Position numbers and translations under genes: made by a program. Source: Hyphomonas sp. TMED17 (GTDB lineage Bacteria; Pseudomonadota; Alphaproteobacteria; Caulobacterales; Hyphomonadaceae). Taken from it: a stretch of 64,000 nt of DNA. This document shows, in pieces, positions 47,442 to 64,000 of the stretch. The stretch is taken from assembly GCA_002172915.1 (NCBI GenBank), contig NHBW01000006.1:283572-347571 (forward strand). The letters run 5' to 3'. The notes below the pieces were generated by a model. The model searched no databases, was not told the DNA's origin, and saw nothing but the letters and a program-made list of their open reading frames with translations. The first letter of the stretch is position 1. Every line of letters begins with the position of its first letter.

Positions 47442-49397
47442 ATGCTGGCAGAACTCGGGCAGCTTGCGCTTGTCATGACATTATTGTTAAGCGCAATTCA
47501 GGCGTGGTCCGGTCTTACCGGCGGCCATCTCAATGATAGCCGGCTGATGCGACTGTCAGAGCGTTCCGCTATTGCCGAAGCGCTTCTGTGCTGTCTGGCA
47601 TTTGGTCTACTGGCAGTTCTGTTTGCTCAGTCCGATTTCTCGGTCAAGCTGGTAGCGACACACTCCCACACGACGAAACCGCTGATCTACAAGCTCAGCG
47701 GGACCTGGGGCAATCATGAAGGCTCAATGCTGTTATGGCTGATGACGCTCGCGGTTTTCGGGGCTGGCATCAGCCTCTTCGGCAAAAGCCTGCCGAGCGG
47801 CTTGCGCGCCCGCGCGATCGGTGTCCACGGACTGTTGGGACTTGGTTTTGCCGGCTTTCTACTATTCACCTCAAATCCGTTTGAGCGCCTGTCGCCGATA
47901 CCTGTTGACGGCGCCGGCTTGAACCCGCTTCTGCAAGACCCCGGCCTCGCTTTCCACCCACCCTTTCTCTACATTGGCTATGTCGGCTTTTCAGTCGCCT
48001 TTTCGCTTGCTGTCGCCGCCCTTATCGAAGGGCAAATCGATGCGATATGGGCGCGCTGGGTGCGGCCATGGGTTCTGCTGGCATGGGCCTTCCTGACGAT
48101 TGGCATCACAATGGGCAGTATCTGGGCCTATTATGAACTCGGCTGGGGTGGCTGGTGGTTCTGGGATCCGGTTGAAAACGTTTCATTCATGCCTTGGCTG
48201 GCGGGCACGGCTTTGTTGCACTCGACGCTGGTTGCGCAGGCGCGCGGCGGCTTTCTGCGCTGGACACTTCTATTGTCGATCGCAACCTTCTCGCTCAGTC
48301 TGATCGGCACTTTCATCGTCCGTTCGGGTGTCCTCACCAGCGTGCATGCCTTTGCAGTTGATCCGGCGCGCGGGGTCTACATTCTGATCCTGCTGGCCCT
48401 GGCAACCGGCGGCGCCCTGACATTATATGCCCTCAGAGCAAATAAGATTGATCACGGGACGCCGTTTGCAGTTGAGAGCCGGGAAGCCGGTTTGGTCATA
48501 AACAATATCCTTCTGGTCTGCGCCACCGCCACGGTTTTTCTGGGAACATTCTATCCTCTGGTTATCGATGCGATAACCGGCGAGAAAATCACTGTCGGAC
48601 CACCCTATTTCGATATGACGTTTGCTCCGATCATGTCCGCCTTGATATTGGTCATGGCGTTCGGGCCGCTGGTTAAATGGCGCAAAGACGAGTTTGCGCG
48701 ATTGCGGCCCGCTTTACTGCGCATGGCGATCGCCGTTCTTGTTTCGCTTATCCTGTTCGCTCTGATCGGAAAAAGTGTCTGGGGCGCGCTTGGTCTTGGC
48801 CTGGCCGTCTGGCTCGCCAGCGGCAGCCTGATCAATTACGCCCGTAAATTGCGACTGGGTGTTAAAAACAGCCGGATTGGCAATCTCGGCTTGCGGGTGC
48901 GCGCACTTCCAGCCGCCGCCCATGGGTTTTTCCTGGCGCATGTCGGGCTAGCTGTCACCGTGGCTGGGATCACCGGCATGTCTGTCTGGGCGGCCGAATC
49001 AACCGCCAGACTAAATGTCGGCGAGCAAGTCTCGGTCGCCGGCTATGATTTCACCCTGACCCGGATGTCAGACGGTGTTGGTGACAATTACCAGGCGCTC
49101 ATTGGGACACTGGCGATTAGTCAGAACGGCGACCCGATCGCTACGCTTGAAGCAGAGCGTCGTTTCTATCCTGTCGAACAAAGCGTTACGACAGAAGGCG
49201 CAATGGATGTGGCTGTGCATCGCACGCTATACGCAGCCATAGGCGAAGGTAATGATATGTCCGGTTGGATTGTCAGGGTCTATATGCACCCATTAGTCAG
49301 CTGGATCTGGGCCGGTGCGCTGATTATGGCACTCGGAGGCTTCGTATCGCTGATCGGGTCGGCACCAAAATCAAAACCAGCTGAGGAGCCTGCCTGA
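47442..49397 (+). CDS. ccmF: cytochrome c haem lyase subunit CcmF
   Basis: CcmF is the large inner-membrane protein of System I cytochrome c maturation that, with CcmH, ligates haem from holo-CcmE to CXXCH apocytochromes. The 651-residue protein has a WNHEGSMLLW-like block (GTWGNHEGSMLLWL), the FHPPFLYIGYVGF segment, and the periplasmic WWD domain GWGGWWFWDPVENVSFMPW. Conserved His residues flank it. About 14 helices are visible. GGAG precedes the ATG. It is the first gene here of the ccmFGHI operon. ccmABCDE are not in the window. Confidence 0.97.
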   Translation: MLAELGQLALVMTLLLSAIQAWSGLTGGHLNDSRLMRLSERSAIAEALLCCLAFGLLAVLFAQSDFSVKLVATHSHTTKPLIYKLSGTWGNHEGSMLLWLMTLAVFGAGISLFGKSLPSGLRARAIGVHGLLGLGFAGFLLFTSNPFERLSPIPVDGAGLNPLLQDPGLAFHPPFLYIGYVGFSVAFSLAVAALIEGQIDAIWARWVRPWVLLAWAFLTIGITMGSIWAYYELGWGGWWFWDPVENVSFMPWLAGTALLHSTLVAQARGGFLRWTLLLSIATFSLSLIGTFIVRSGVLTSVHAFAVDPARGVYILILLALATGGALTLYALRANKIDHGTPFAVESREAGLVINNILLVCATATVFLGTFYPLVIDAITGEKITVGPPYFDMTFAPIMSALILVMAFGPLVKWRKDEFARLRPALLRMAIAVLVSLILFALIGKSVWGALGLGLAVWLASGSLINYARKLRLGVKNSRIGNLGLRVRALPAAAHGFFLAHVGLAVTVAGITGMSVWAAESTARLNVGEQVSVAGYDFTLTRMSDGVGDNYQALIGTLAISQNGDPIATLEAERRFYPVEQSVTTEGAMDVAVHRTLYAAIGEGNDMSGWIVRVYMHPLVSWIWAGALIMALGGFVSLIGSAPKSKPAEEPA

Positions 49398-49954
49398 TGG
49401 CGACGCCAGAAAAAAAACGCGACTGGTCTGCTCTGGCACCGATTATGGCCTTTGCCGGGCTCGCTTTCTTGCTGGCAGTCGGGCTGACACGCGACCCACG
49501 GCTATTACCATCGGAAATGATTGACCGAGAAATGCCGAGCTTCGATCTTCCGGCCTTGCGGGCCGGCGACGCCCGTGTATCGAATGCGGACCTCGAAGGT
49601 CAGATCAGTCTCGTCAATGTCTTCGGATCGTGGTGCGCGGCATGTATCGTCGAGCATTCGAAACTGGTCGAACTGTCATTCCGCAATGATATTCAAATGG
49701 TCGGTCTGAACTGGCGCGACAATAATAGCGCGGCCCTTCGCTGGCTTGCCCAGTATGGCGACCCGTATGATCTCATTGCCATTGACACAAATAGTGATCT
49801 GGCAATTGAATTAGGCGTAACAGGAGCACCGGAAACATTTCTCATCGGCCCGAATGGCCAGATCCGGTATAAACAGATCGGCCCGCTTACGGATCAGGCC
49901 TGGTCGGAAAATATCGAACCGATTGTCAACGCGATCAAAGCGGAGGCAAATTAG
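49397..49954 (+). CDS. ccmG: thiol:disulfide interchange protein CcmG/DsbE
   Basis: CcmG is a membrane-anchored thioredoxin that keeps apocytochrome c haem-binding cysteines reduced. The 185-residue protein has an N-terminal anchor (APIMAFAGLAFLLAVGL) and a thioredoxin fold with the active site WCAAC preceded by VNVFGS. The conserved acidic and Pro segment VTGAPETFLIGPNG is present. Its start overlaps the ccmF stop by one base (TGATG). ccmH begins directly after its stop. Confidence 0.95.
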   Translation: MATPEKKRDWSALAPIMAFAGLAFLLAVGLTRDPRLLPSEMIDREMPSFDLPALRAGDARVSNADLEGQISLVNVFGSWCAACIVEHSKLVELSFRNDIQMVGLNWRDNNSAALRWLAQYGDPYDLIAIDTNSDLAIELGVTGAPETFLIGPNGQIRYKQIGPLTDQAWSENIEPIVNAIKAEAN

Positions 49955-50446
49955 ATGAAATATCTTTTTCTGAGTTTGCTAAGCAGCCTCGTGATCAGCA
50001 TTTCGGTGGCGCAGACGGCAACAGCGCCGGATGCCAATGCGGTCGAAGAACGCACGGCCACAATTTCGAAAACACTGCGCTGCGTCGTGTGTCAGAATCA
50101 GTCCATTCATGATTCGAACGCCCCGCTTGCCTCGGACATGCGAACGCTGGTTGAAAAACGTGTGATAGCTGGCGACAGTGATGACGAAGTTCGGGCGTAT
50201 CTGCGCGAACGCTATGGCGACTTTGTACTGATGAGCCCGCCATTTCAGATAAATACTTTATTGTTATGGCTCGGACCGGCTCTGTTTGTCGCCGCATTCG
50301 CAATATGGTTCGCCCGTCGGGTGAGAACCAATCACAAAATCGCGGCTGAAAATGAAGCCAGCCGCGGCCTTAGCGAGGACGAACGCAGCCGTCTGACTGC
50401 GGCCCTCGCAGACCTGACCGATATAAATAAAGGAAACGACACATGA
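49955..50446 (+). CDS. ccmH: cytochrome c maturation protein CcmH
   Basis: CcmH (CcmL-type) holds the thiol-disulfide CXXC that handles apocytochrome c. The 163-residue protein has a signal peptide, the motif LRCVVCQNQSIHDSNA, and a C-terminal membrane helix (LLLWLGPALFVAAFAIWF) followed by a cytoplasmic tail. It starts one base after the ccmG stop and overlaps ccmI by four bases (ATGA). Confidence 0.95.
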   Translation: MKYLFLSLLSSLVISISVAQTATAPDANAVEERTATISKTLRCVVCQNQSIHDSNAPLASDMRTLVEKRVIAGDSDDEVRAYLRERYGDFVLMSPPFQINTLLLWLGPALFVAAFAIWFARRVRTNHKIAAENEASRGLSEDERSRLTAALADLTDINKGNDT

Positions 50447-51408
50447 TCTGGTTTGTATTTGGATCTCTTCTACTGTTGATCCTGATTTATATTCTACCAC
50501 CAATCCTGACCAGCGCAGCGCCGAAAGAGAGCGACGGACAAGAAACGCTCGCAGAGCTGAAGCAGCAGCTGCTTAAGCTACAAGCCGATGTCGATCAGGG
50601 TGTTATCGATGCCGATACGGCCAGCGAAAGCCGGCAGGCGCTTGAGAGACGCCTTTTGACATTGGTCGATGCGGACGACACGACGCCCCAGTCGACCAGA
50701 TCCGAGGCAATTGTCCAACTGGCGCGGACTGCGATCCCGCTAGCGCTGGCCTTTGGCGGGGCTGGCATCTATCTCGGTGTCGGGTCGCCGGATTTTGAGG
50801 ATAGAGCAACCTTCACAACCGCACAGGATACGAGCGGACATAATTCAGCCGATTCACTTGAGAACATGGTGGCGAGCCTGGAACAAAGGCTCGCAAATGA
50901 CCCCGCCCCGACGCCGGAATCAGTTATTCTTCTCGCGCGGTCCTTAATGGCACTTGGCCGGTATGATGACGCATTTGTCGCTTATGACTGGACGCTGGAA
51001 CTGACCAATAATCACCCGCAGGTTCTGGCCGAAATGGAACGCTCGCGTGAATTTATCGCCCAAGCCGGTGACAATATGGTGCCTGCATCACCGGCCGCGA
51101 CCGCCGAACGGGTGCCGGCCGGCATGCCATCAATGCCTGCGCTCGACCAGCAGACAGTTGATAATGCCAATCAAATGAGCGCTGGCGATCGCGCCGCTAT
51201 GATCGATTCAATGGTGTCAGGATTGGCGATGCGGCTTGCAGAACAGCCCGATGACCCGGAGGGTTGGGCACGCCTCATCCGAGCCAGAATGGTTCTCGGC
51301 CAGACCGGGCAGGCAAGACAGGATTTTGAGACGGCTCGGCAAACCTTTGCTGACGCGCCGGAAAAACGTCGCTACATTGAGAGCTTTGCGGCCGAACTCG
51401 GACTCTAG
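50443..51408 (+). CDS. ccmI: cytochrome c maturation protein CcmI
   Basis: CcmI is the apocytochrome c chaperone of System I. The 321-residue protein has two N-terminal helices (FVFGSLLLLILIYILPPIL and ARTAIPLALAFGGAGIYLG) around a cytoplasmic coiled loop with a leucine-rich stretch, then periplasmic TPR-like repeats (LLARSLMALGRYDDAFVAYDWTL and WARLIRARMVLGQTGQARQDF) that bind the apocytochrome C-terminus. Length is shorter than some relatives. It ends the ccmFGHI operon, next to the multihaem locus that needs this machinery. Confidence 0.92.
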   Translation: MIWFVFGSLLLLILIYILPPILTSAAPKESDGQETLAELKQQLLKLQADVDQGVIDADTASESRQALERRLLTLVDADDTTPQSTRSEAIVQLARTAIPLALAFGGAGIYLGVGSPDFEDRATFTTAQDTSGHNSADSLENMVASLEQRLANDPAPTPESVILLARSLMALGRYDDAFVAYDWTLELTNNHPQVLAEMERSREFIAQAGDNMVPASPAATAERVPAGMPSMPALDQQTVDNANQMSAGDRAAMIDSMVSGLAMRLAEQPDDPEGWARLIRARMVLGQTGQARQDFETARQTFADAPEKRRYIESFAAELGL

Positions 51409-51648: not shown

Positions 51649-51999
51649 TTATATTGCCTGGCGGTCAGACGCCGGTCTGCTGCCATGATAAAGCGGCGTG
51701 CCCGAATGGTGCAGCGATATCGTAGTGACCCGCACGGGTTCGCCATCGCCTGTAATGGCCATAAAATAGCGCGGCACTGCCGATCTACCCGTTCCGCTTT
51801 CCACCTGTCGTCGCCATGTGCCGAATTTTATCAGAAGCCATAAGTAACCGGACGCCTGCGCCAGAACGGGCGTCAGCAACCGCCCGGCCATTGGCGATAA
51901 AACAACGCCCGGGAAATCAAGCCGGATGGCAGATGGCAAATGCCAGCCCGCAACCGAATTAATTTTCGAACAAAAAGATATCCCGCCGCACAATATCAT
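51649..51999 (-). CDS. hypothetical protein downstream of the FHA/decahaem gene
   Basis: This 116-residue leftward frame starts at an ATG inside the 3' end of the FHA/decahaem gene (41-base overlap) and continues past its stop. The translation looks protein-like (AGWHLPSAIRLDFPG, SAVPRYFMAITGDGEP, VRVTTISLHHSGTPLYHG), but I recognise no family, and the Shine-Dalgarno is weak. It could be a last small gene of the electron-transfer operon, a remnant, or chance. Confidence 0.35.
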   Translation of the reverse strand: MILCGGISFCSKINSVAGWHLPSAIRLDFPGVVLSPMAGRLLTPVLAQASGYLWLLIKFGTWRRQVESGTGRSAVPRYFMAITGDGEPVRVTTISLHHSGTPLYHGSRPASDRQAI

Positions 52000-53770
52000 C
52001 CGCCGACATCATAAGCTCGCTATGCGGCCCGTCATGATAGTCGTGGCACGTATTACAAGTTGATGGCAGCAGGTCTTCGCTATGCTGTCCGCCATGACAG
52101 GTCTGGCAACTTTCGATGGTTGGCAACAAGACATCACTGGCCTCATTCGAGATATCAGCCCGGTGACAGCTAATGCAATCGAGATTACCAATCTCGTGGC
52201 TGGCATGATCAAATTGACCTTTCGGCAGGAAGCGATCTGTGACCATTACGGGTTCGACCTGATATGCCAGAGGATCGTCGCCTTCAGCAGGCGGCGTGAT
52301 GACGTGACAATCATAGCAGGCCCCGCCTTCGCTAAAGATTGCCGCAACTTTGTCAGCCGTTCTTAGTCCGGCTGTCCGGAAAGCCATTTCCCGCTGGTTT
52401 ATAGCCCGGTTCATTGCAGCACGCCCGGGACGCCGGCGATCGGTGTTCAGTGATGCGGCCTCTCTGACATTGGCGAGTGCTTTTGCCAGATAGAAATCTT
52501 CCATTGAAGCAATGACCTCTTCAGGCTCGCCATGCCGTAATGTCCGGCGATAACCATCATCCTCGATTTCGAATGTCAGATCATGACACATTGCGCAATT
52601 TTCCGTCATCGACACCGGCTCGAACAGTACATTCGCGGCATCCGGGGTGTGACAGTCAGCACAAACCAGTTCGTCGCCCCAGCCATATTCATCGCCAAGA
52701 TCCGCGACCTGTTTCAGGACGGCCGGGCCATCAATATGCAATTTATGCGGGTACTTCAGACCGGAGTTTTCCTGCGGATTATCATCCAGGGAAACCCGGA
52801 ATGTTTCAGGTCCGTTGACGCCGGCCACTTGCATCAGCGTTGGCCGGAATTGCGGATGATCAAGAGCAAAGTCACTCACATTCAACAAATCGGTTTCCGG
52901 CAGCCGCGCGGTAAGATCGACGTGACAGTCGCTACAGATCGCACCGTCCTGCAAAACCACCAAATGGCGGGGATTATGCTCGGTGTGACAATCGGCACAG
53001 CGTCCCGCCGGCCGACCAGCCGCATCAGCTATGTTCTGAAGCTGGGCATCCCAGCCACTAAGATCGGGCTGCGACTGCGCCATATCAGCGGCAGGCGCGT
53101 GATTTCTCAAATCAAAATGGCACGAGACACAAGTCTCGTCGCGAACTGATTGAAACCCTTCTTCATGACAGCTACCGCAATCATTCTCCAGATTTGCATG
53201 CATGTGCGACAAATCCCCAGAGGACCAGATTGTATCAGCATTTTCAACCGAAATACCGAACAGCTCGTCGGCATCATGGGCGGCGACATACCACGGTATG
53301 AATAGACAGAATATTGTCACGACAATCGCGCCCGCCCAGGCCATTAAGCGGCTCGAGGGCAATGCTCTCGATGTATTGAAAGCGGCCTGCCGGTCAGCAA
53401 GAATAGACGGATCCTTTACTTGCTCTGCCCGCTCGACCTGCAACACTTTCTGGCCCGCATCGGGATCGTCGGCAATCGTTATTGTCCAGTCATTGAAACC
53501 CAGAACATCGCCGACTTGCAGCGGCACGCGTTCACCATCAACCAAGCGCCCATTCAGGCTAACACTTCGCCCGTCGAGAAGCTCGACGAACAGATTGCCA
53601 TCGTCGCGATAGTATATTTTTAGATGCTGCAGACCGATTTCGAGATCGGCAAGCTCGACATCACACTCTGGCGAGCGCCCGAAAATGGCCGAACCGGAAT
53701 TCTCGAGCAATATACGGGAACTCTTTCGACCACCGGGCCTGAGCCTAAGCTGTGTAACGGAGAACAACAT
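51959..53770 (-). CDS. FHA domain - membrane helix - decahaem cytochrome c fusion
   Basis: This 603-residue protein opens with a cytoplasmic FHA domain (about 5-100: FGRSPECDVELADLEIG, Arg32, His49, LNGRLVDGERV with Asn73). The usual Ser of the SxxH motif is Gly46, so classical phosphothreonine binding is doubtful. One membrane helix (about 142-164) follows, and the rest is periplasmic with ten CXXCH haem motifs at about 198, 214, 258, 279, 370, 392, 485, 532, 555 and 572. Extra His residues could be distal ligands, and a cytochrome c3/NapC-like pattern repeats. The ATG at 53770 or 53773 has GGAG upstream. It is the third gene of a leftward operon with the oxidoreductase and the b-type protein. 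Likely role: electron transfer between the membrane and periplasmic carriers. Confidence 0.85.
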   Translation of the reverse strand: MLFSVTQLRLRPGGRKSSRILLENSGSAIFGRSPECDVELADLEIGLQHLKIYYRDDGNLFVELLDGRSVSLNGRLVDGERVPLQVGDVLGFNDWTITIADDPDAGQKVLQVERAEQVKDPSILADRQAAFNTSRALPSSRLMAWAGAIVVTIFCLFIPWYVAAHDADELFGISVENADTIWSSGDLSHMHANLENDCGSCHEEGFQSVRDETCVSCHFDLRNHAPAADMAQSQPDLSGWDAQLQNIADAAGRPAGRCADCHTEHNPRHLVVLQDGAICSDCHVDLTARLPETDLLNVSDFALDHPQFRPTLMQVAGVNGPETFRVSLDDNPQENSGLKYPHKLHIDGPAVLKQVADLGDEYGWGDELVCADCHTPDAANVLFEPVSMTENCAMCHDLTFEIEDDGYRRTLRHGEPEEVIASMEDFYLAKALANVREAASLNTDRRRPGRAAMNRAINQREMAFRTAGLRTADKVAAIFSEGGACYDCHVITPPAEGDDPLAYQVEPVMVTDRFLPKGQFDHASHEIGNLDCISCHRADISNEASDVLLPTIESCQTCHGGQHSEDLLPSTCNTCHDYHDGPHSELMMSADDIVRRDIFLFEN

Positions 53771-53783
53771 CATAGGGCTCCAA

Positions 53784-54647
53784 TCACCAATAATAGAAAA
53801 CGCTAAAAACGTGCGCCACAAGAGCGAGAATAAGCGCAAACGTCACGGGAATGTGAATTGAAAGCCAAACCTCCAACAAAGCGCGATACCGGATATGTGA
53901 CCGGATGCGATACAGAATTGCCTTTTTGCGCTCCAGAATGGCAACAACATCAGCGACCAGATCAACATCCTTGTCAGACAGGTTGGTCTGGATCCTCTTG
54001 AAGGCCGCCAATCCTTTGGCCGTGCCACAGCTTGACGGGTTGCGCCGGAAGCGGCTCAGGATCGAGCCGCCAATCTTGCTCTGACGAATCGTCATTTCGA
54101 CAATGTCGACCCATTCTTTGCGAAGCGGCAGCGCCGCCTTGCCGAGATTCTTGTCGAGCGCATCAAGCTCGACCAGCATTTCTTGCTCCGTCATCGAGTC
54201 ACGATTCTGCGCCATTTTTATCGGTAAGCTAAGGTACGCATACAAACCCCAGGCGCCCGATAAAATCACCAGCATCATCAAAACATAGGCGAGTGTGTGA
54301 ATGTTCCACCCAAACTGAAAGCCCGTGTGCAGCGTAGCCAAAATGATCAGGCTGAGACCGAGATAGACATGCGCAGACGTCCAGCCGCGAAGTGACCATT
54401 TACCACTTGTCATCAGCCGTTTCCGGACCCCCAGAAAGCTCAACCAGACAATAATCAAAAGGCTGATTGTACCGAGCGCATAGCCAACCACAGTTCCGCC
54501 ATTTGCGACGGGTGTCGGATCACTGGCAAAATACGCGATTACGGCGAGCAGACACAGGGCGAAGGCGATCTTGAAATAGAGATAACCCCGATGAGACATA
54601 AAGTTTTGTTGCGACCGAGGTCCGGACGCTGTCGATCTGGAAGCCAC
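53784..54647 (-). CDS. histidine-rich five-helix membrane protein, probable b-type cytochrome
   Basis: This 287-residue inner-membrane protein has helices near 22-42, 51-72, 88-110, 117-139 and 262-284. His93, His107 and His117 in helices 3 and 4, and His264 and His279 in helix 5, could ligate one or two b haems, as in cytochrome b561 or ferric-reductase-like membrane subunits. A cytoplasmic loop of about 120 residues (150-260) is rich in Lys, Arg and Asp. It starts with GTG two bases after the oxidoreductase stop and ends 13 bases before the FHA/decahaem start. It would carry electrons between the cytoplasmic Fe-S subunit and the periplasmic cytochrome. The family assignment is by pattern only. 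Confidence 0.7.
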   Translation of the reverse strand: MASRSTASGPRSQQNFMSHRGYLYFKIAFALCLLAVIAYFASDPTPVANGGTVVGYALGTISLLIIVWLSFLGVRKRLMTSGKWSLRGWTSAHVYLGLSLIILATLHTGFQFGWNIHTLAYVLMMLVILSGAWGLYAYLSLPIKMAQNRDSMTEQEMLVELDALDKNLGKAALPLRKEWVDIVEMTIRQSKIGGSILSRFRRNPSSCGTAKGLAAFKRIQTNLSDKDVDLVADVVAILERKKAILYRIRSHIRYRALLEVWLSIHIPVTFALILALVAHVFSVFYYW

Positions 54648-54649
54648 GT

Positions 54650-57103
54650 CTAATCCTTTGCCTTAGCCGCTGTGAGATATTGTTCCGGAGAAACACGAAC
54701 GGCGGCGCCTGTCGGGCAGGCTCGAACACATGCCGGCCCGCCATCAATCCCCATGCACATGTCGCATTTGACGGCCTTCTTCGGCGCGGCCGCCTTATCA
54801 CTGCTGGCTTTGCCTTTGATCCATTCTGCATCGGGCTGGCCCGGCCCAGGACCCGTTCCGAACAGCAACCAGTTAAGCAAGTTTGGTTTGCGGGGAGGAA
54901 CTTTCTCCATCTGGATTACCCCGTAAGGACAGTTCCGCTGGCAGTTTCCGCATCCAATGCAGCTATCATTAATATAGACTTCGCCATGCGGTGCACGTCG
55001 AATGGCATCCGGCGGACAATCACTCATACAATGAGGGTGCTCGCAATGGCGGCAGGATGTCGGCACGTGAATGTTTGCAAAGCTCACACCCGCTTCGCGA
55101 TCGAGACGAGAAATGCCTTCATGGCTGTCGGCACACGCTCGCTCGCAATTGTCACAACCGACACACATGGTTTCGTCGATCAAAAGCGCGTCAGTTGCTT
55201 CACCAAGACCCTGCTCAACCAGGAAGTTGGCAACCGAGCTGTTCAGGTCAACAACCGAATTAAAAGATGCTTTTTGAGCCTCGATATGCGCGTTCAGGTT
55301 ACGCCGCTCGCGAAACTTGTCTTCCAGTTTAGCCTTAAGCCGCTCATTACGGTTCAGCAAAGCTTCGAATAAATCGCCATTCAATTTGATAATTTCTGAC
55401 TTGATCGCGGCCTTCACAGTCGCTGTTCTCTGCCCGTTATCAAGCAAAGCGATTTCCCCGACATACGACCCGGCCGGCAGGTAATTAAGGAAGACCGGTT
55501 TACCGCCAATCAGCTTTTCCACAACCATGCTGCCATAGCGAATGATGAATATGTCCCGGCTCGTCTCGCCTTCATTAATCAAGACATCGCCCGATTTCAG
55601 GCTCATAATTTCGGCGGTCTGCAGGACATCATTCACATCTGCCGGCGTGAGACCCGATCCGAATATTTGCAACAGGCTGCGTTCGGTCGCGATTTTGTCA
55701 ATTTCGGTTTTAACTGCCGGAACAGTCGACATAAGTTTTCTGGCGGCGCTGCGCGGCACTTCCACCAATATGCAGGATTCCGCCGCCCGGATGGTTGCCC
55801 CGCGGCGCCGGCCGGAAATCAGGCCGATCTCACCGAAAATCGATCCTTGCTCGATCCGAACGGTTTTGGATGGATCATTTGGATCAACTTCAACTTCAAC
55901 GCTACCCTTGGAAATTGTAAACAGCGAGGTCCCGATATCGTTACGCTCGAAAATCTTCTGGCCCGGACGAAACATTTTGACATCAGAATCCAGCATAAAT
56001 TCGCGGATCTGGAGTTCTGACAAAGGATTGAAAATTGAAATAGATTCACGGAACGTATTCAGCCAACCCGACACATCATTCGGATTGGGCAGTTTTTTGA
56101 ACTTCTCAACGAACAGGACCTCGTCAGCTGGTTTGAGTTCGTCATTGCCGTTAATGAACTCGATGACATCATAGCCCTGGTTCATACAATGCTTAATCAG
56201 CGGATACCCGGCGAGTGCGCCGATAACATAGATACCCTCAGTAGTCGCTTCAAATTGCGAACTCAAAACCGGGAAAGCCTCCCGGTCAGGGCTTGAAAAC
56301 TCGATGCCGCAGCCTTCGACAAACCTGCGTGGCGGTGCCGAGCCGATCCGCGCGATAATACGGTCGCAACGCAACCGCTCTTCGCCATCATTGACGCTAA
56401 CCGTAATCCAGCCGGGCTCGACTTTTACTGTCGACGTACTTGTCATGACGTCCATACGCCCTTGGTCGCGCGCCGACAGGAGCGCTTTAACATTGGCATC
56501 CTTGGCGCGTGGAAAATCAGGCGCCCGCTGCAGCAGTGTCACCCGGTTGCCTTGGTCGGCATCTGCGCATAGGCCAAGTGCATTCTCAATACCGGCATCA
56601 CCGCCACCGATCACAATGATATTCTTGTCAAAGTGAGCTTTCGGATCATCAAGCTGGTATTGAATGAATGGCAAATCACCACCAGGCTCACGCATCCTGT
56701 TCGGATTGCCCTGCGTTCCGATCGCCATAATGACGTTCTCGGCTAAAATTTCGGTGCCATCGCCAAGCGTCAGCTTGAAATCACCTTTGGCACCGGTAAT
56801 TGCCGTCACTTCGCTGTTGTATCGGATATTCACGCCTGCCGTATCAACCGCACTCTGCCACATTTCGAGAGTATTTTCGCGTGTCCCGGCATCGAAGCCA
56901 ACATCGCTGCGCAATACGAGCTGTGACGGCGTCGCCATAATATGCTTGCCAAGCTGGTATTTGAAAATTGTATCGGAAAGATGATCGGTCTTTTCAAGAA
57001 GGATATGCGGCATGTTTAGTGCGGCCGCGTGCGCCGCGGCGCTCATTCCAGCTGGTCCAGACCCAACGATTGCTACTACTACTTTATCAGTATCGTCCCG
57101 CAT
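54650..57103 (-). CDS. FAD/NAD oxidoreductase fused to two cNMP-binding domains and four [4Fe-4S] clusters
   Basis: This 817-residue cytoplasmic protein has no signal peptide. Residues 1-330 form a thioredoxin-reductase/YpdA-like domain with GSGPAGMSAAAHA and VIGGGDAGIENA, but no redox-active CXXC. Two CRP-like cyclic-nucleotide-binding domains follow (about 358-470 and 485-600). The second has the canonical phosphate cassette GEIALL...QRTATV, and the first has GEIGLI...RRGATI. The C-terminus (640-800) is a DmsB/HybA/NrfC-like ferredoxin with cysteines at 647-657, 684-696, 715-725 and 780-796, enough for four clusters. It leads the operon with the b-type protein and the FHA/decahaem protein. 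It could be a cAMP- or cGMP-tuned electron input or output module. Confidence 0.88.
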   Translation of the reverse strand: MRDDTDKVVVAIVGSGPAGMSAAAHAAALNMPHILLEKTDHLSDTIFKYQLGKHIMATPSQLVLRSDVGFDAGTRENTLEMWQSAVDTAGVNIRYNSEVTAITGAKGDFKLTLGDGTEILAENVIMAIGTQGNPNRMREPGGDLPFIQYQLDDPKAHFDKNIIVIGGGDAGIENALGLCADADQGNRVTLLQRAPDFPRAKDANVKALLSARDQGRMDVMTSTSTVKVEPGWITVSVNDGEERLRCDRIIARIGSAPPRRFVEGCGIEFSSPDREAFPVLSSQFEATTEGIYVIGALAGYPLIKHCMNQGYDVIEFINGNDELKPADEVLFVEKFKKLPNPNDVSGWLNTFRESISIFNPLSELQIREFMLDSDVKMFRPGQKIFERNDIGTSLFTISKGSVEVEVDPNDPSKTVRIEQGSIFGEIGLISGRRRGATIRAAESCILVEVPRSAARKLMSTVPAVKTEIDKIATERSLLQIFGSGLTPADVNDVLQTAEIMSLKSGDVLINEGETSRDIFIIRYGSMVVEKLIGGKPVFLNYLPAGSYVGEIALLDNGQRTATVKAAIKSEIIKLNGDLFEALLNRNERLKAKLEDKFRERRNLNAHIEAQKASFNSVVDLNSSVANFLVEQGLGEATDALLIDETMCVGCDNCERACADSHEGISRLDREAGVSFANIHVPTSCRHCEHPHCMSDCPPDAIRRAPHGEVYINDSCIGCGNCQRNCPYGVIQMEKVPPRKPNLLNWLLFGTGPGPGQPDAEWIKGKASSDKAAAPKKAVKCDMCMGIDGGPACVRACPTGAAVRVSPEQYLTAAKAKD

Positions 57104-57160
57104 TTATACAATACCATCCGCCGCCCTTTCTTAGTAGTCACGCGAGCTGGAATGAAATGC

Positions 57161-57197
57161 AAGTATAAAATAATGTTTGGCTTGACTTTTATACCTT
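57161..57197. promoter_or_regulatory. inverted repeat in the divergent promoter of the electron-transfer locus
   Basis: AAGTATAAAA (57161-57170) faces TTTTATACCTT (57187-57197), reverse complements apart from one inserted base. A TTGACT -35-like hexamer (57182-57187) sits beside the right arm. The site is central to the 138-base gap between the two divergent operons. No FNR- or CRP-like site is evident. Confidence 0.4.
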
Positions 57198-57241
57198 AAG
57201 CCGATTTCCTCAACCGCGGGTGACGTGTGGGATCAGGGCGC

Positions 57242-58603
57242 ATGAAGATTAATCAACGGCCCTTGTCGGGCGGTATACTTTTACTCTTTCTGATTATGGG
57301 CTTCGCGACTGCCCAGCCCGCAGGCTTTGACGAAAATACAGACGGTATTCATGCCGGTGTAATGAGCTGTTACGGCTCGACTTGCCACGGCCGACAGGAA
57401 TCGACCGGGGTCGTAGTTTTACAAAACGAAATACAAATCTGGCAGGATGAAACGACCGTCGCCGGTGCCCATGTCAGGGCATACAAAATCCTTTTCGACG
57501 ACCGGTCGCAGGCGATCGCAGAAAAGATGAATATTGACGCCGCACATACAGCCCCGGAGTGTCTTTCCTGTCACAGTGACCCGGTTCCTGCATCGCTGCG
57601 CGGGCCACAATTCCAGATTTCTGATGGTATCGGGTGCGAAGCTTGTCACGGCGCGTCCGGCGGCTGGCTGACAAGCCATTATGCCGAGGGCGCAACCCAT
57701 GCGGAAAATATCAGCAATGGATTATACCCAACGGAGGATCCGCTTGCGCGTGCCGACCTCTGTCTAAGTTGTCATTTAGGGTCCTCACGCGAAGATCAAT
57801 TTGTATCGCATCGCCTAATGGCCGCGGGTCACCCTAGAATGTCATTCGAACTTGATCTTTTCACGGCGCTGCAAGCCCATCATCTCGAAGACTATGACTA
57901 TGAAGAGCGCAAGGGCCTGCAAGGTGGCGCCCGGGTCTGGGCCATCGGTCAAGCCAAAGCCTTACAAAATCAGCTCGATCTCTTTGGTAATTCCGACCAT
58001 GCCCGCGATGGTCTGTTCCCTGAACTTATTTTCTACGACTGTTTCGCGTGTCACCGTGAAATTTCCGATGATCCGAACTGGCGACCGGTAGTTCGCGAAA
58101 ATCCGCTGCGGCCTGATATTCGGGGGGTCCCGAAATTCAACGACGCTCATATGATTATGCTCAGCATTGCGGCGTCCAGCCTCTCTGACGAGGCGCGCCA
58201 GAGCGTCGACGCACAGACATTTGCCTTCCACCGCGCCCTTGAAACCGGCATTGGTGTTGATGAAGAGATCACGGCATATATGGCCCTCTCCGCACGGCTG
58301 ATCCGTCAATTCCAGAGAAAGCAGTTCACGCGAAGCGATTATCTGAGCATGATCCGTAACACATTATCGCGCTCGACAGCCGCGGCTTACACCGATTATC
58401 AAACCACCGAGCAAGTCGTCATGGCGGTCGACACGCTGTTGAATGCAATGGTTGTATCGGGCATGACAACGCGGCAGGCTGTTAGCATTATGCGTGAAGA
58501 TCTCGAAATCGCCTATGACGCCGTGCTTGACCCGAATGATTATGATCAGGACCAGCTCATCGCAGCACTGGACAGGATTGCAGCCTCATTGGAGACGATT
58601 TGA
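57242..58603 (+). CDS. pentahaem periplasmic cytochrome c (cytochrome c554-like)
   Basis: This 453-residue protein has a signal peptide (GGILLLFLIMGFATAQ), starting at the ATG at 57242 with AGGG upstream, preferred to a GTG 15 bases earlier. It carries four CXXCH motifs (about residues 107, 132, 174 and 267) and one CX4CH motif, CYGSTCH (43-49). The CX4CH spacing is seen in some multihaem families. The N-terminal third resembles the cytochrome c554/c552 type. The C-terminal 180 residues lack haem motifs and look helical. It begins the rightward operon and is likely the periplasmic shuttle of the pathway. Confidence 0.85.
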   Translation: MKINQRPLSGGILLLFLIMGFATAQPAGFDENTDGIHAGVMSCYGSTCHGRQESTGVVVLQNEIQIWQDETTVAGAHVRAYKILFDDRSQAIAEKMNIDAAHTAPECLSCHSDPVPASLRGPQFQISDGIGCEACHGASGGWLTSHYAEGATHAENISNGLYPTEDPLARADLCLSCHLGSSREDQFVSHRLMAAGHPRMSFELDLFTALQAHHLEDYDYEERKGLQGGARVWAIGQAKALQNQLDLFGNSDHARDGLFPELIFYDCFACHREISDDPNWRPVVRENPLRPDIRGVPKFNDAHMIMLSIAASSLSDEARQSVDAQTFAFHRALETGIGVDEEITAYMALSARLIRQFQRKQFTRSDYLSMIRNTLSRSTAAAYTDYQTTEQVVMAVDTLLNAMVVSGMTTRQAVSIMREDLEIAYDAVLDPNDYDQDQLIAALDRIAASLETI

Positions 58604-60627
58604 GACATCACCTCCCTTTACGATTGGCCGGTCCAATTCTAGCCAGCTTTGCGCTCGGCAGCTGCAGTGGTGGAGGCGGGTCCAATCCGGATAATACATC
58701 AGCGGGCCCCATCGCGTCGCCAACTCCCAGCCCACAGAGTGTCTACGGCATCCCGGCGCTGGAATCACTAAGTATCAGCGACGTTGAAGCCATTGTATCG
58801 CAGGCGGTTCTTGAGGCCGAAGCGCAAGGCCTCAATGCTGTCATCGCAGTGTCGGACCGGGTCGGAAATATTCTCGCTGTTTATGAAATGACCGATGCCT
58901 CGCCAACAATCCGGATTCGCCCGGGTCCAAACGGTGAAGACGCGGGATTTCAGGGCCTCGATGTGCCACGCGCAGCCGCAGCTATTTCCAAGGCGGTGAC
59001 TGGCGCATATTTGTCCTCGTCTGGTAACGCGTTTTCGACGCGGACTGCGAGCATGATTGTGCAGGAACATTTTCCACCCAGCCCGTTCACCGCCGGGCTA
59101 GAAAGCGGGCCGCTTTTCGGCGTCCAGTTCAGCCAGTTACCATGCTCCGATCTGGTGCAGCGCTTCGGGCCGGACGATAGTTTGACGGGCCCGAAACGCA
59201 CGCCGCTCGGCCTGTCGGCCGACCCGGGTGGATTGCCACTCTATAAGAATGGCGTTGTGGTTGGCGGCATCGGGATTTCAGGTGACGATGATTATGGTCT
59301 TGATCTGGACATTAATGACGTCGACAAAGACCCCGAAGAGCTGATCGCGATTGCCGCGGCCTTTGGCTATGCGGCGCCGGCTGAAATTCGGGCCGAACGC
59401 GTCAGTGTTGACGGAACGTTACTGCGTTTCACCGACCAGGAAGAGCGCCATTTACTTACAGATCCTGCCGCTGCCCCTGGCCTCAGCCTGATGCCGGCAT
59501 CGGACGGGAGCCTGATAACCGTCACCGGTTATTTCGATGCCACGACCGGTGTTAAGGCCGGAACCGCCTATGGCTCGGCCGCATCTGGTATCCGCGATGC
59601 GCTCGATAGCGAAAATAGTAATCCGAACCTATACATTCTGGTTGACGCCGATGGCACTAACCGGTTCCCGCCACGGGGCGGGACCGATGGTGGCGCTGGC
59701 GAAGTTGCCGAGCCACTTACTGAAAACGAAGTCCGGGTTCTACTCGACGAAGCAGCCGGCGTGATGGCAAGAGCCCGCGCGCAGATTCGCCGGCCGCTCA
59801 ACAGTCGCGCCCAAGTATCATTTTCAATTGTTGATACCCGCGGACAAATTCTAGCGATCGCAAGATCACCAGATGCACCAATCTTTGGAACCGACGTATC
59901 CTTGCAAAAAGCCCGTACGGCAACATTCTTCTCAGGCCCGAACGCGGCTTCGGACTTGCTCGGAACAACCAGAAGTCCAGTCATCGCCGCAGCCGCTGGC
60001 GTTGCCGATACCGACGTCAATGATACCGTTCAGGCCGTTCGCGACTTCCTTGATGACAGCGCTGCGCTGACTGGCGAATTCGCCTTTGCAGACAGATCCG
60101 GCGGCAATCTTGCCCGACCCTATTTCCCGGACGGTCAACTTGGTACTTTTAACGGACCATTATCGCTGCCAATTGACGAATGGAGCCCCTTTGCGACCGG
60201 TCTTCAGGCCAGTCTGATCAAGGACAATGTCCTTGAACATGCCACTTTTGTTGTTGGCGGCATTAATACTGATACGGCGCGTGGCTGTACATTCCTGCCA
60301 CCGATTAGCAGTACCGATCCTGGCCAAAACCGGCTTCAGAACGGCATTCAGATCTTCCCGGGATCTGTTCCCATTTATCGCGGCAATACTTTGGTTGGCG
60401 GCATCGGTGTCTCCGGCGACGGTATTGATCAGGATGATATGATTTCATTCTTAGGTCTGCATAATGCCGGTCTGCGACTAGGAACGATCAATAATGCCCC
60501 GGCTGCGATCAGGGCTGACCAGATCGAAGTTGCTGTCGGTAGCGACAGTGTCAGACTTCGCTATATCAGCTGTCCGTTCAACCCCTTTCTAGATACTGCA
60601 GAGCAAAACGTATGCGCAGGGAAATAA
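58600..60627 (+). CDS. lipoprotein with two HbpS/GlcG-like domains
   Basis: This 675-residue protein begins with a TTG that overlaps the previous stop (TTGA), five bases after GGAG. The N-terminus is a lipoprotein signal with lipobox LGSC, then a Ser/Pro-rich linker. Two repeats of the HbpS/GlcG (DUF336-like) fold follow, near 55-275 and 375-650. Shared elements include ISDVEAIVSQAV and LTENEVRVLLDEA, AVSDRVGNILAVYEM and SIVDTRGQILAIARSPDA, and GVVVGGIGISGDD and GNTLVGGIGVSGDG. Known HbpS relatives bind haem or iron. The lipid anchor suggests a surface or periplasmic location. The 3' end overlaps the barrel gene by 16 bases. Confidence 0.8.
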   Translation: MRHHLPLRLAGPILASFALGSCSGGGGSNPDNTSAGPIASPTPSPQSVYGIPALESLSISDVEAIVSQAVLEAEAQGLNAVIAVSDRVGNILAVYEMTDASPTIRIRPGPNGEDAGFQGLDVPRAAAAISKAVTGAYLSSSGNAFSTRTASMIVQEHFPPSPFTAGLESGPLFGVQFSQLPCSDLVQRFGPDDSLTGPKRTPLGLSADPGGLPLYKNGVVVGGIGISGDDDYGLDLDINDVDKDPEELIAIAAAFGYAAPAEIRAERVSVDGTLLRFTDQEERHLLTDPAAAPGLSLMPASDGSLITVTGYFDATTGVKAGTAYGSAASGIRDALDSENSNPNLYILVDADGTNRFPPRGGTDGGAGEVAEPLTENEVRVLLDEAAGVMARARAQIRRPLNSRAQVSFSIVDTRGQILAIARSPDAPIFGTDVSLQKARTATFFSGPNAASDLLGTTRSPVIAAAAGVADTDVNDTVQAVRDFLDDSAALTGEFAFADRSGGNLARPYFPDGQLGTFNGPLSLPIDEWSPFATGLQASLIKDNVLEHATFVVGGINTDTARGCTFLPPISSTDPGQNRLQNGIQIFPGSVPIYRGNTLVGGIGVSGDGIDQDDMISFLGLHNAGLRLGTINNAPAAIRADQIEVAVGSDSVRLRYISCPFNPFLDTAEQNVCAGK

Positions 60628-62453
60628 GCCGCCGGACATATACTCTTCAAGCGCTGCTTCTGGCGGCTGGCCTGTGCTGTTTGCCGGCATCGTTTGCTGA
60701 TGATGGCGGGACCGCGCCGGAGCCGGTTACGTCGGAAACGTCTACGCAAACCGAACAGGCCACGGCACCCGAAACCGGGAGACGCCGGCCACGGCCGCGC
60801 GCAGAACTTGAAAATCGCCCGCAAGCATTTGATTCGACAGCAGTCGCGCGCCCTTTGCCATCGACGTATCCGACCGAGGAAATTCCCTTGCCGGACCGCT
60901 GGCGCCTGGTCGAGACCCTTGGCGTCAATGAACGCTGGTATGACCCTTATAATCAGAATACGTTGAAGGGAGACCGTCCAATCGGCGGAACCGATCACTG
61001 GTTCTTCGTCGCCACCGGGATTTCCGACACAGTCGTCGAGCACCGTACCTTTCCGACACCCGTTGGCGTCCAGACCACTGATCAGGCCGGCAATATCGAC
61101 GTATTTGGCAATAGTGAATCACTCGTGCTAAGCCAGACTTTTCTGGCCAGTGCAGCACTTATCGATGGCAATACGACGTTCAAACCACAAGACCTCGAAT
61201 TCCGAGTCGCTCTGGCATTGAATCTGAATGATGTTGATGTCGAGGAGCGCCGGATCCTGTTCGTCGAACCGACCAAAGGTAAACGCCGGACGGATGCCTT
61301 CCTCGGCCTGCAGGAAGCTTTTGTCGACTATCACATCCGGAACGTGTCCGACCGCTATGATTTCGATTCAGTCCGGGTCGGTATTCAGCCCTTTTCCAGT
61401 GATTTCCGCGGATTCCTGTTTCAGGATAACCAGCTTGGCGTCCGCTTTTTCGGCAATCGTGACAATAATCGCTGGCAATACAATCTCGCAGCATTCCTGC
61501 GCCTCGAAAAAGATACGAATTCCGGTTTGAACTCGGTTGTCGATGCACCGCGCGATGACATTATTTTCTTCGCCAACGCTTTCCGGCAGGATTTCCCGGT
61601 GCCGGGCATGACCTCGCTGGCCAGCATAACCTACAATCTCAACCGGGAATCCGGCGATATAACGGTTGACGATAATGGCTTCCCGGTGCGCCCGGCTCTA
61701 CTTGGTGACCTCCGGGGACGGGACTATGATGTCGTCTATCTCGGTTACAGTCTCGACGGCCGCTATGGCCGACTTAATCTTTCGGCGTCCAGCTATGCCG
61801 CGCTGGGACAAGACCGGAACAGCATTTTCACCGGCCGCGAAACAGATATCCGGGCCGGTTTTGTCGCTGCTGAAGCGTCTTACGACTATAATTGGATCCG
61901 GACCCGGGTTTCGGCGCTGTATGCCAGTGGTGACAAGGATCCATATGATGATGTCGAAACCGGCTTTGATGCCATTTTCGAAAATCCGCAATTTGCGGGC
62001 GGTGACACCTCCTACTGGATCCGCCAGACAGTACCGTTTGCCGGCGGCGGGCGAGCTATCGCCTTAAGCGGGCGCAATGGGATTCTCAACAGCCTGCGCT
62101 CGTCAAAAGAGCAGGGGCAGTCGAATTTCAACAATCCGGGGACGATCCTGCTTGGACTTGGGGCCGACTTTGACCTCACACCGGAAACACGCGTCTCATT
62201 CAACGCCAATCATATCCGGTTTGACCAGACCGCAGTCGTTGAAGCCCTTCGCATGCAAGGCGACATCGGCTCCGAAATCGGGAATGATTTGTCGATATCG
62301 GCAACTTACAGACCGGCCTTTACGCAAAATATCGTTTTCCGAGCATCCGCCGCGAGCCTCGAGCTCGGTGACGGATTCAAAGACCTCTTCACTGCCAAGG
62401 ACCAAAGGGACCGACATTATTCGGTGCTTCTGAACCTTGTTCTCACCTATTAG
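60612..62453 (+). CDS. outer-membrane beta-barrel (porin-like) protein of the multihaem locus
   Basis: This 613-residue protein has a signal peptide (ALLLAAGLCCLPASFA), a Pro/Arg-rich linker, and a long series of alternating beta strands typical of outer-membrane barrels (YDVVYLGYSLDGRYGRLNLSASSYAAL, FVAAEASYDYNWIRTRVSALYASG, TRVSFNANHIRF). It ends in an aromatic residue (LNLVLTY), the usual barrel signal for BamA. No cysteine pairs or haem motifs are seen. It lies between a haem-binding-type lipoprotein and a multihaem cytochrome, so by analogy with porin-cytochrome conduits it may sheathe a cytochrome across the outer membrane. That comparison is functional, not by clear homology. Confidence 0.75.
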   Translation: MRREISRRTYTLQALLLAAGLCCLPASFADDGGTAPEPVTSETSTQTEQATAPETGRRRPRPRAELENRPQAFDSTAVARPLPSTYPTEEIPLPDRWRLVETLGVNERWYDPYNQNTLKGDRPIGGTDHWFFVATGISDTVVEHRTFPTPVGVQTTDQAGNIDVFGNSESLVLSQTFLASAALIDGNTTFKPQDLEFRVALALNLNDVDVEERRILFVEPTKGKRRTDAFLGLQEAFVDYHIRNVSDRYDFDSVRVGIQPFSSDFRGFLFQDNQLGVRFFGNRDNNRWQYNLAAFLRLEKDTNSGLNSVVDAPRDDIIFFANAFRQDFPVPGMTSLASITYNLNRESGDITVDDNGFPVRPALLGDLRGRDYDVVYLGYSLDGRYGRLNLSASSYAALGQDRNSIFTGRETDIRAGFVAAEASYDYNWIRTRVSALYASGDKDPYDDVETGFDAIFENPQFAGGDTSYWIRQTVPFAGGGRAIALSGRNGILNSLRSSKEQGQSNFNNPGTILLGLGADFDLTPETRVSFNANHIRFDQTAVVEALRMQGDIGSEIGNDLSISATYRPAFTQNIVFRASAASLELGDGFKDLFTAKDQRDRHYSVLLNLVLTY

Positions 62454-62464
62454 GACCTATCAAG

Positions 62465-64000
62465 ATGCAAGCGCACAAAAAACCCGCCAAGAAAGGCTAT
62501 ATGCGCAGTCTGAATGCGTTGAAGCTCGGTCTTTCGCTTGCGCTGGCGGTATGTCTCAGCCCGGTGAGCTACGGTGCCGGTGAAGAAACGCCGCAGGACA
62601 TCACATATGCGTTCACGCCCGATGCCCCGGCATCACAGTCACAAGCCTCTGCCGACCTCAAATCCGATGGTTGCATTAGCTGCCATACCGTCACGGATTC
62701 GGCGACCATGCACAATGTCCCTGGCGTTGTGCTGGGCTGTACCGATTGCCATGGTGGCGATGCCGGCGTCTTTCTGACCGAAGATTACGACCGCTATAGT
62801 GACGAATACGCAGCCGTACGCGACAGCGCCCACGTTCTGCCGACCTATCCAGTCGCCTGGCACGCACCGCATTCGGCGAACCCGGAACGTTCTTACACAT
62901 TGCTGAACCGCGAAGCGCCCGAATTTATTCGCTTTGTAAACCCGTCTGACTATCGCATTGCAAGAGAGGCCTGCGGATCCTGTCACCTCGACAGCATTGT
63001 CGCCGCGGAGCGCTCTTTGATGGCGACGGGAGCTATGCTCTGGGGCGGGGCGGCCTATAATAATGGCATTCTGCCATTCAAAAAATACATCATTGGCGAG
63101 GCCTATACCCGCGATGGCGAGCCAGCCGTGCTGACATCACCAATGGGCGAATTAGGTGAACTGACCCCCGAACAGCTTGCACGTGGTATCATTCCGAAAC
63201 TACTGCCAATGCCGGCTTGGAACGTCATTCCGCCAGCCGACGTCTTCCGCGTATTCGAACGCGGCGGCCGCAATATCATCACTCAGTTCCCGGAAATCGG
63301 CCTGCCGAATTCGCTCGGCCAGTTGCAGAGAATCGAAGAGCCGGGCCGGCCCGATATCCGTCAGTCCAACCGGGGGCCAGGCACCGGCCTGCGGGTGGCA
63401 ATCCCGGTTCTCAACATTCACAAAACCCGTTTGAATGATCCGTTCACTTGGTTCTTTGGTACAAATGACCAGCCAGGCGATTACCGGACATCCGGTTGCG
63501 GCTCCTGTCACATTGTCTACGCCAATGACCGCGAGCCCCGTCACAGCTCGATCTGGGCCGAATATGGCCGTGATGGCGAGACCGCAACGGTTGACCCGAC
63601 CATCCCGCGCGGCGAGCCCGGACATCCGATCCGGCACGAATTCACCCGCTCGATCCCGACCTCACAATGCATGATCTGCCACATGCACCAGCCGAACATG
63701 TTCCTGAACTCCTATCTCGGCTACACAATGTGGGATTATGAATCCGATGCGCCTTCAATGTGGCCGGAAGAGCAAAGATATCCTTCCATCGAAGAGGCCT
63801 GGAAAATCCTGAAGCGAAATCCTGAAGGTGCGGCGGTTCGCGGGCTTTGGGGTGATCTCGACTTCCTGCGTAATGTTTACGACCTGAATGAAGACCTCAA
63901 CGACACCCAGTTCGCCGATTATCATGGCCATGGCTGGAATTTCAGAGCGATCTTCAAGCGCGATAGAGATGGTAATTTGCTGGATGCCGACGGTGAAATT
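62465..64000 (+). CDS. large multihaem cytochrome c (3' partial)
   Basis: An open frame runs from the ATG at 62465 (AGGA upstream) through 512 codons to the window edge. The N-terminus is a signal peptide (LKLGLSLALAVCLSPVSYG) after a basic lead. Five CXXCH motifs are visible: CISCH, CTDCH, CGSCH, CGSCH and CMICH, near residues 70, 92, 170, 345 and 401, with more likely beyond the window. The residues between the haem motifs do not match a family I can name, though DCHGGDAG and CHMHQPNMFLN resemble octahaem or larger cytochromes. It is the fourth gene of the rightward set, 11 bases after the barrel gene, and may be a surface or barrel-embedded terminal electron carrier. Confidence 0.85.
   Translation, partial: MQAHKKPAKKGYMRSLNALKLGLSLALAVCLSPVSYGAGEETPQDITYAFTPDAPASQSQASADLKSDGCISCHTVTDSATMHNVPGVVLGCTDCHGGDAGVFLTEDYDRYSDEYAAVRDSAHVLPTYPVAWHAPHSANPERSYTLLNREAPEFIRFVNPSDYRIAREACGSCHLDSIVAAERSLMATGAMLWGGAAYNNGILPFKKYIIGEAYTRDGEPAVLTSPMGELGELTPEQLARGIIPKLLPMPAWNVIPPADVFRVFERGGRNIITQFPEIGLPNSLGQLQRIEEPGRPDIRQSNRGPGTGLRVAIPVLNIHKTRLNDPFTWFFGTNDQPGDYRTSGCGSCHIVYANDREPRHSSIWAEYGRDGETATVDPTIPRGEPGHPIRHEFTRSIPTSQCMICHMHQPNMFLNSYLGYTMWDYESDAPSMWPEEQRYPSIEEAWKILKRNPEGAAVRGLWGDLDFLRNVYDLNEDLNDTQFADYHGHGWNFRAIFKRDRDGNLLDADGEI

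Follow-up and report, generated by a model that had tools for sequence, protein, structure and literature searches.

A conserved multihaem gene set of Hyphomonas sp. TMED17 and other Proteobacteria as a candidate NADPH-driven, possibly cAMP-gated electron chain

We analysed a 64,000-nucleotide stretch of Hyphomonas sp. TMED17 (contig NHBW01000006.1, positions 283,572 to 347,571; hereafter the window) that ends in seven genes arranged as two divergent operons, FAD-BM-FHA on the minus strand (the inner module) and C5-D336-BAR-BIG on the plus strand (the outer module). In related genomes, many of them from bacteria of soil and water, these genes recur together and are mostly linked, a flavoprotein and a cytochrome b of the set are found naturally fused, and the residues of the cofactor and cyclic-nucleotide (cNMP) sites are conserved. 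We propose, at a probability of roughly 0.45, that this one conserved gene set encodes an NADPH-driven chain that would lead to a periplasmic multihaem reductase and is likely gated by cyclic AMP (cAMP). The features on which the proposal is built are listed here in window coordinates.

51959..53839, minus strand: FHA, 626 residues as listed, with an FHA domain (Pfam E = 1.8e-8) and ten CXXCH motifs
53784..54647, minus strand: BM, membrane protein of 287 residues, predicted di-haem cytochrome b with H-x13-H pairs at 93/107 and 265/279
54650..57103, minus strand: FAD, 817 residues, with a Pyr_redox flavin/NAD(P) domain, two cNMP-binding stretches and four 4Fe-4S motifs; predicted cytoplasmic
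57104..57226, no strand: intergenic region separating the two operons, 123 bases if C5 starts at its GTG and 138 if it starts at the next ATG
57227..58603, plus strand: C5, pentahaem cytochrome of 458 residues, c554-like, with a signal peptide, four CXXCH motifs and one CX4CH
58600..60627, plus strand: D336, HbpS-like protein of 675 residues with the lipobox LGSC, predicted lipoprotein
60612..62453, plus strand: BAR, 613 residues, with a signal peptide, predicted 18-strand outer-membrane barrel; no Pfam match
62465..64000, plus strand: BIG, the part in the window (first 512 residues) of a protein of 1310 residues whose gene ends at window coordinate 66397

Co-occurrence and linkage of the seven genes

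Every genome found to carry BIG also carries FAD. In the order sample, FAD was present in 23 of 299 genomes and BIG in 22, all 22 of which have FAD; in the class sample, BIG was present in 20 of 289 genomes and FAD in 26, again with FAD in all 20. The distinct BIG genomes number 41, and FAD is found in 41/41: the two genes lie within 11.1 kb of each other on the same contig in 34, on different contigs in six and far apart in one. Hypergeometric values for this co-occurrence (2e-32 and 7e-26) overstate the evidence, since the genomes within a sample are related. An earlier sequence-only reading of this DNA had suggested that the two operons work jointly, a view to be given up if their homologues occurred mainly apart; they occur mainly together.

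Gene order was compared in 80 loci, the best 80 of at least 569 relatives. Genes were called as chosen open reading frames (ORFs) labelled by BLAST; BM and FAD are sometimes masked by an antisense or other-frame ORF (e.g. in L045 and L195), and in L197 no ORF carries the FHA label. Because the flanks reach at most 10 kb or are cut by contig ends, gene counts in these loci are lower bounds. All seven genes fall inside the fetched stretch in 31/80 loci. The two halves are divergent, as in the window, in L027, L028, L030 and L043, for example, and convergent in many sphingomonads. L045 has a single run of FAD-BM-FHA-C5, a glutamate-dehydrogenase-like gene and D336-BAR. Members from other orders have FAD-BM-FHA-D336-BAR-BIG on one strand (L189, L191, L196), and in L190, also from another order, C5 precedes the same one-strand run, so that all seven genes stand in a row.

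In the window, gaps within the operons are -56, 2, -4, -16 and 11 bases for the ORFs as listed; for FHA, a Met-Met 22 residues into the listed ORF (~53773) is the likelier start. All parts named in the sequence-only reading are present, and the promoter region of 138 bases that it described corresponds to a C5 ATG five codons downstream of the GTG. A CRP-type site between the operons was considered and set aside, its best match having four mismatches.

Two loci that are FAD-positive and BIG-negative (L185:13419-19522 and L186:2793-6309) have, next to the inner module, a different multihaem protein and one that looks barrel-like. In several genomes an NADP-type glutamate dehydrogenase gene lies inside or beside the cluster (L037:18573-19901, L045:3834-5366); the call was made on the L037 gene, and the L045 gene looks alike. 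Neighbours of this kind were weighed as clues to the substrate and left unused (glutamate dehydrogenase in 26/80 loci, acetolactate-synthase-like and aldehyde-dehydrogenase genes in 20/80 each).

Redox and cyclic-nucleotide sites

Conservation was scored in alignments of proteins within fixed length ranges (FAD 780-900, FHA 540-700, C5 420-520, D336 600-850, BIG 1200-1420, BAR 560-760, BM 265-340 and PDE 250-330 residues), which exclude truncated ORFs and both fused FAD-BM proteins. All 16 iron-sulphur (FeS) cysteines of FAD are kept in 80/80 aligned rows, and an Arg after the second Rossmann strand in 77/80. YpdA and thioredoxin reductase flavoproteins are among the best matches of the flavin part, and HycB/DmsB-type ferredoxins among those of the FeS part; FAD differs from them in joining both in one chain with two cNMP domains. 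Its score with the YpdA model is 124.9 of 339.9 bits. Assignment as a thioredoxin reductase was rejected on the redox-active CXXC, which the flavin domain of the window protein lacks: the first five cysteines stand at 179, 246, 265, 306 and 444, and the FeS motifs follow.

FAD and BM are fused in L179 (L179:3052-6423) and L180 (L180:9350-12706), both from a single genus of a different proteobacterial class, giving proteins of 1123 and 1118 residues. The assignment of BM as a b-type membrane protein, first made from the window alone, is supported by two H-x13-H pairs in 68/68 rows and by a family scan in which 14/14 members matched cytochrome b561 (PF01292), some of them weakly, with a best E-value of 1.3e-9. 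The window protein itself scores 16.1 bits with that model, below the cut-off of 30.1. Ferric_reduct (PF01794) was matched by 1/14 members at E = 0.032, short of an assignment, and a BM profile searched against the PDB returned weak, unrelated matches only.

FHA consists of a cytoplasmic FHA domain, one predicted membrane helix (residues 165-183) and a decahaem periplasmic part, in which the Cys-Cys-His of all ten haem motifs is conserved in 82/82 rows; its PDB matches are weak or confined to haem motifs, the best being hydroxylamine oxidoreductase (8e-6). The FHA fold is matched and its Gly-Arg is kept in 82/82 rows. Of the loop residues that we take to bind phosphothreonine, His is kept in 73/82, Ser in 12/82 and Asn in 21/82; the phosphothreonine-reader site is degenerate, and the domain does not qualify as a reader.

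FAD matches PF00027 with 114.9 bits over two stretches that lie between the flavin and FeS domains, and the match qualifies as a cNMP-binding domain. In 80 FAD rows, the Glu of the two cassettes is kept in 80 and 79 and the Arg in 80 and 80, residues that we take to mark the phosphate-binding cassette. Of the signalling domains invoked in the sequence-only reading, the two cNMP sites thus look intact and the FHA domain, with Ser and Asn unconserved, does not.

The contig extends beyond the window, where BIG is followed by a convergent gene, PDE, and then by galactose genes.

66575-67414 (L003:5147-5986), outside the window, convergent to BIG: PDE, class III phosphodiesterase-like protein of 279 residues

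PDE passes the Metallophos model, and its best solved relative is Rv0805/Icc. It adjoins FHA on the same strand in 42/80 loci, many of them from sphingomonads. In two neighbours that were scanned, a CHASE2 domain is fused to a nucleotide cyclase. The CHASE2 search covered 37 genomes, all with a CHASE2 domain, and the count was taken over the order sample's 23 FAD genomes: 13/23 have a CHASE2 domain no more than 10 kb from the cluster, against 0.65 expected and a maximum of 7 in 200,000 simulation runs. A PDE match was found in 14/23 and, weakly, in 1/9 congeners without FAD; in 12 of the 14 PDE-bearing genomes, 2.5 kb or less separates it from a CHASE2 domain. In L046, cyclase, PDE, FAD, BM and FHA follow one another on one strand. 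The intact Glu and Arg of the cNMP cassettes and the clustered phosphodiesterase and CHASE2 proteins are new here, the association of PDE and cyclase with the cluster lying beyond what the sequence-only reading had found. We tentatively suggest, at clearly less than an even chance, that in many Proteobacteria cAMP binds the flavo-iron-sulphur protein directly and would open or shut NADPH electron flow into the multihaem reductase, with a CHASE2 sensor cyclase and a dedicated phosphodiesterase setting the signal.

The outer module, the proposed electron path and its alternatives

The haem motifs of the outer module are equally well kept, and conservation at this level in FHA, C5 and BIG goes beyond chance. 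The first motif of C5 (57368-57388) is a CX4CH whose Cys, Cys and His are present in 82/82 rows, as is the Cys-Cys-His of all five motifs. Reading on past position 64000, as the sequence-only reading had proposed, gives BIG its full 1310 residues, with ten CXXCH motifs and C-terminal LVIVD repeats; the Cys-Cys-His of all ten is conserved in 17/17 rows. The window's BIG has no lipobox, and its early Cys is unconserved in the 17 aligned rows. D336 has a lipobox in 70/83 rows by a loose pattern. Against the PDB, BIG and C5 gave weak or haem-motif matches. A structure model of BAR is an 18-strand channel nearest to AlgE and the Occ porins; no MtrB-type structure is among the 50 matches listed for this model, and a BAR profile found no relative among PDB sequences at E 1. 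Median identity to the window protein is 67.8% for BIG, 62.2% for BAR, 61.3% for FAD, 58.4% for D336, 47.3% for BM, 42.4% for C5, 37.2% for PDE and 32.1% for FHA. BIG is thus the best-kept protein, which suggests a specific substrate or partner.

In the chain that we propose, FAD, BM and FHA would carry electrons from NADPH, rather than NADH, across the inner membrane through the flavin, four 4Fe-4S clusters and two b haems. The carriers would act outward in the order FAD, FeS, b haems, FHA decahaem, C5 and BIG, with C5 as the shuttle and BIG as the terminal reductase. The 18-strand barrel of BAR would admit a substrate for BIG to reduce, probably with help from the D336 lipoprotein. The cNMP pair would probably gate transfer between the flavin and the FeS clusters, cAMP being made by the CHASE2 cyclase and removed by PDE. 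Such a chain would work on modular lines, much as an NADPH oxidase or a ferric reductase does, with multihaem proteins on its far side and no step through quinone.

Several observations weigh against this chain or parts of it. The preference for NADPH leans on the Rossmann Arg, which we take to be a mark of NADPH use. The BAR model, of the barrel alone, has modest confidence (mean predicted local distance difference test score, pLDDT, 64.9), and an AlphaFold2 model of BIG (residues 40-1235; mean pLDDT 44) was not used. BIG is missing in 7/48 FAD genomes and lies 1.7 Mb from FAD in G047. Among the BIG-less genomes, G328 has D336 cut by a contig end, and G250, the one FAD-only genome of the order sample, is fragmentary (89% complete, 460 contigs, FAD on a 3.8-kb contig). 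The missing BIG genes, the separation in G047 and the other multihaem module of L185 and L186 would all suit two modules that merely travel together, FAD-BM-FHA as an inner-membrane redox regulator and C5-D336-BAR-BIG as an outer unit. We regard this as very improbable given that FAD is present in all BIG genomes and that six or seven of the genes run along one strand in L189, L190, L191 and L196; the swapped module also fits exchangeable ends of one chain, of which that in L185 and L186 is possibly one terminus. The circuit has exceptions of its own. A PDE match is missing in 9/23 FAD genomes and CHASE2 lies within 10 kb in only 13/23; in the window genome the only CHASE2 gene is 298 kb from PDE; and PDE and CHASE2, though paired, do not share a contig with FAD and BIG in G098, G138, G198 and G250. 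PDE also stays below the cAMP-phosphodiesterase cut-offs (117.6 of 225 bits for the CpdA equivalog, 121 of 400 for SpdA), so 3',5'-cAMP stays a candidate substrate only. The same chain might then lack cAMP gating, with cNMP domains that are structural or bind another ligand, and with PDE and cyclase regulating something else. This is a serious if rather unlikely alternative, against which stand the one-strand run of L046 and the two cassettes, whose Glu and Arg persist in 79-80 of 80 rows.

The sequence-only reading had envisaged a path over both membranes to the cell surface. Electrons would then leave via BAR, with C5 or BIG as the wire, for insoluble acceptors, quinones or humics outside, and a multihaem protein and a barrel are indeed adjacent in one operon here; a different multihaem protein also stands beside a barrel-like protein in two BIG-negative genomes. 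However, BAR is modelled like the 18-strand AlgE and Occ channels, whereas the MtrB sheath has 26 strands, and BIG is large, is no lipoprotein and shows far stronger conservation than C5 or the FHA decahaem. An outer-membrane conduit now looks rather unlikely. Flow in the opposite sense, with BIG oxidising an outside donor and electrons moving inward to make NADPH, has in its favour that multihaem chains can run both ways and that sequence leaves the direction unfixed. NADPH formation would require a very-low-potential donor or an input of energy, and a coupling protein was not seen among the seven genes; electron uptake appears very improbable.

Distribution, related systems and significance

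With a threshold of 1e-10, BIG has at least 7,998 protein matches; the named ones among the best 120 of these include proteins of Parvularcula, Hyphococcus, Algimonas, several sphingomonads and one Enterovirga, and where BIG is named in annotation it is usually a 'hypothetical protein'. The titles of the 80 loci read Alphaproteobacteria or plain Proteobacteria. Duganella and Sinimarinibacterium were reached with a more distant query, and Tahibacter, Rudaea and Dokdonella with one based on FAD; of 299 genomes drawn from the whole phylum, nine have FAD at 1e-80, including four that belong to other classes. The gene set is conserved in Caulobacterales and Sphingomonadales, with relatives among the beta- and gammaproteobacteria. 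Within the genus of the window, FAD was found in 0/24 other genomes at E 1e-60. The locus is bordered by a further group of genes.

47442-51408: ccm-type cytochrome c maturation genes, adjoining the locus upstream

These genes adjoin the locus in many relatives that have it, and the ccm names are our assumption, aided by similarity to relatives. A CcmF search of eight congeners showed that the two nearest (72% and 67% identity) retain the ccm genes, and in the ~11 kb past them the seven genes, PDE and the galactose genes were not found. The congeners yielded no clean empty site; the simple reading is gain or loss of the locus as a block. In a plasmid collection, BIG was matched in 13 of 72,556 records, 12 from Sphingobium and one from Sphingopyxis. 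The large plasmid pMSHV of S. herbicidovorans, which is typed as conjugative, carries the full set (L171:1-18930) behind genes for a CHASE2 protein, a secretion protein of the ShlB/FhaC kind and a protein of very large size without assigned function. A possible link to quinone-mediated azo-dye reduction in Sphingomonas was dropped, no paper among those listed bearing on it by title or start of abstract.

The sequence-only reading knew of no described system of this composition, and our comparison, which covered open-licence PMC papers, found no description of the gene set among those listed, by title and start of abstract. The nearest described analogue found is the extHIJKLMNOPQS cluster of Geobacter sulfurreducens, of which passages were searched (PMC5877670). 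It is likewise a conserved cluster with multihaem cytochromes, a porin-like outer-membrane protein, a membrane b-type cytochrome and an Fe-S protein; it differs in having a Rieske protein, a rhodanese and a four-haem lipoprotein, and those passages mention no FHA domain, cyclic nucleotide, NADPH or LVIVD (PMC5877670). BIG has sub-threshold matches to the ExtM, ExtN and ExtO models, and its membership of ExtM was rejected at 71.1 of 800 bits. MtrCAB and other porin-cytochrome conduits are alike in that multihaem cytochromes are encoded beside an outer-membrane barrel, whereas here the predicted barrel has 18 strands, there is no multihaem lipoprotein, and input would come from a flavo-FeS protein; none of the seven proteins matched the NapC/CymA family. 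NADPH oxidases and ferric reductases share the arrangement in which a flavin and nicotinamide domain supplies two b haems held by paired His 14 residues apart. BM is closer to cytochrome b561, and the FeS and cNMP domains and the multihaem partner are additions here.

Trans-envelope multihaem chains have been studied mostly in anaerobic metal reducers. The chain proposed here would draw on a nicotinamide flavoprotein, not on quinol, and would have cAMP-type sites on the feeding protein itself; if true, a messenger would here switch electron export directly. For the sphingomonads, the locus provides a defined gene set with which unexplained redox activities may be tested.

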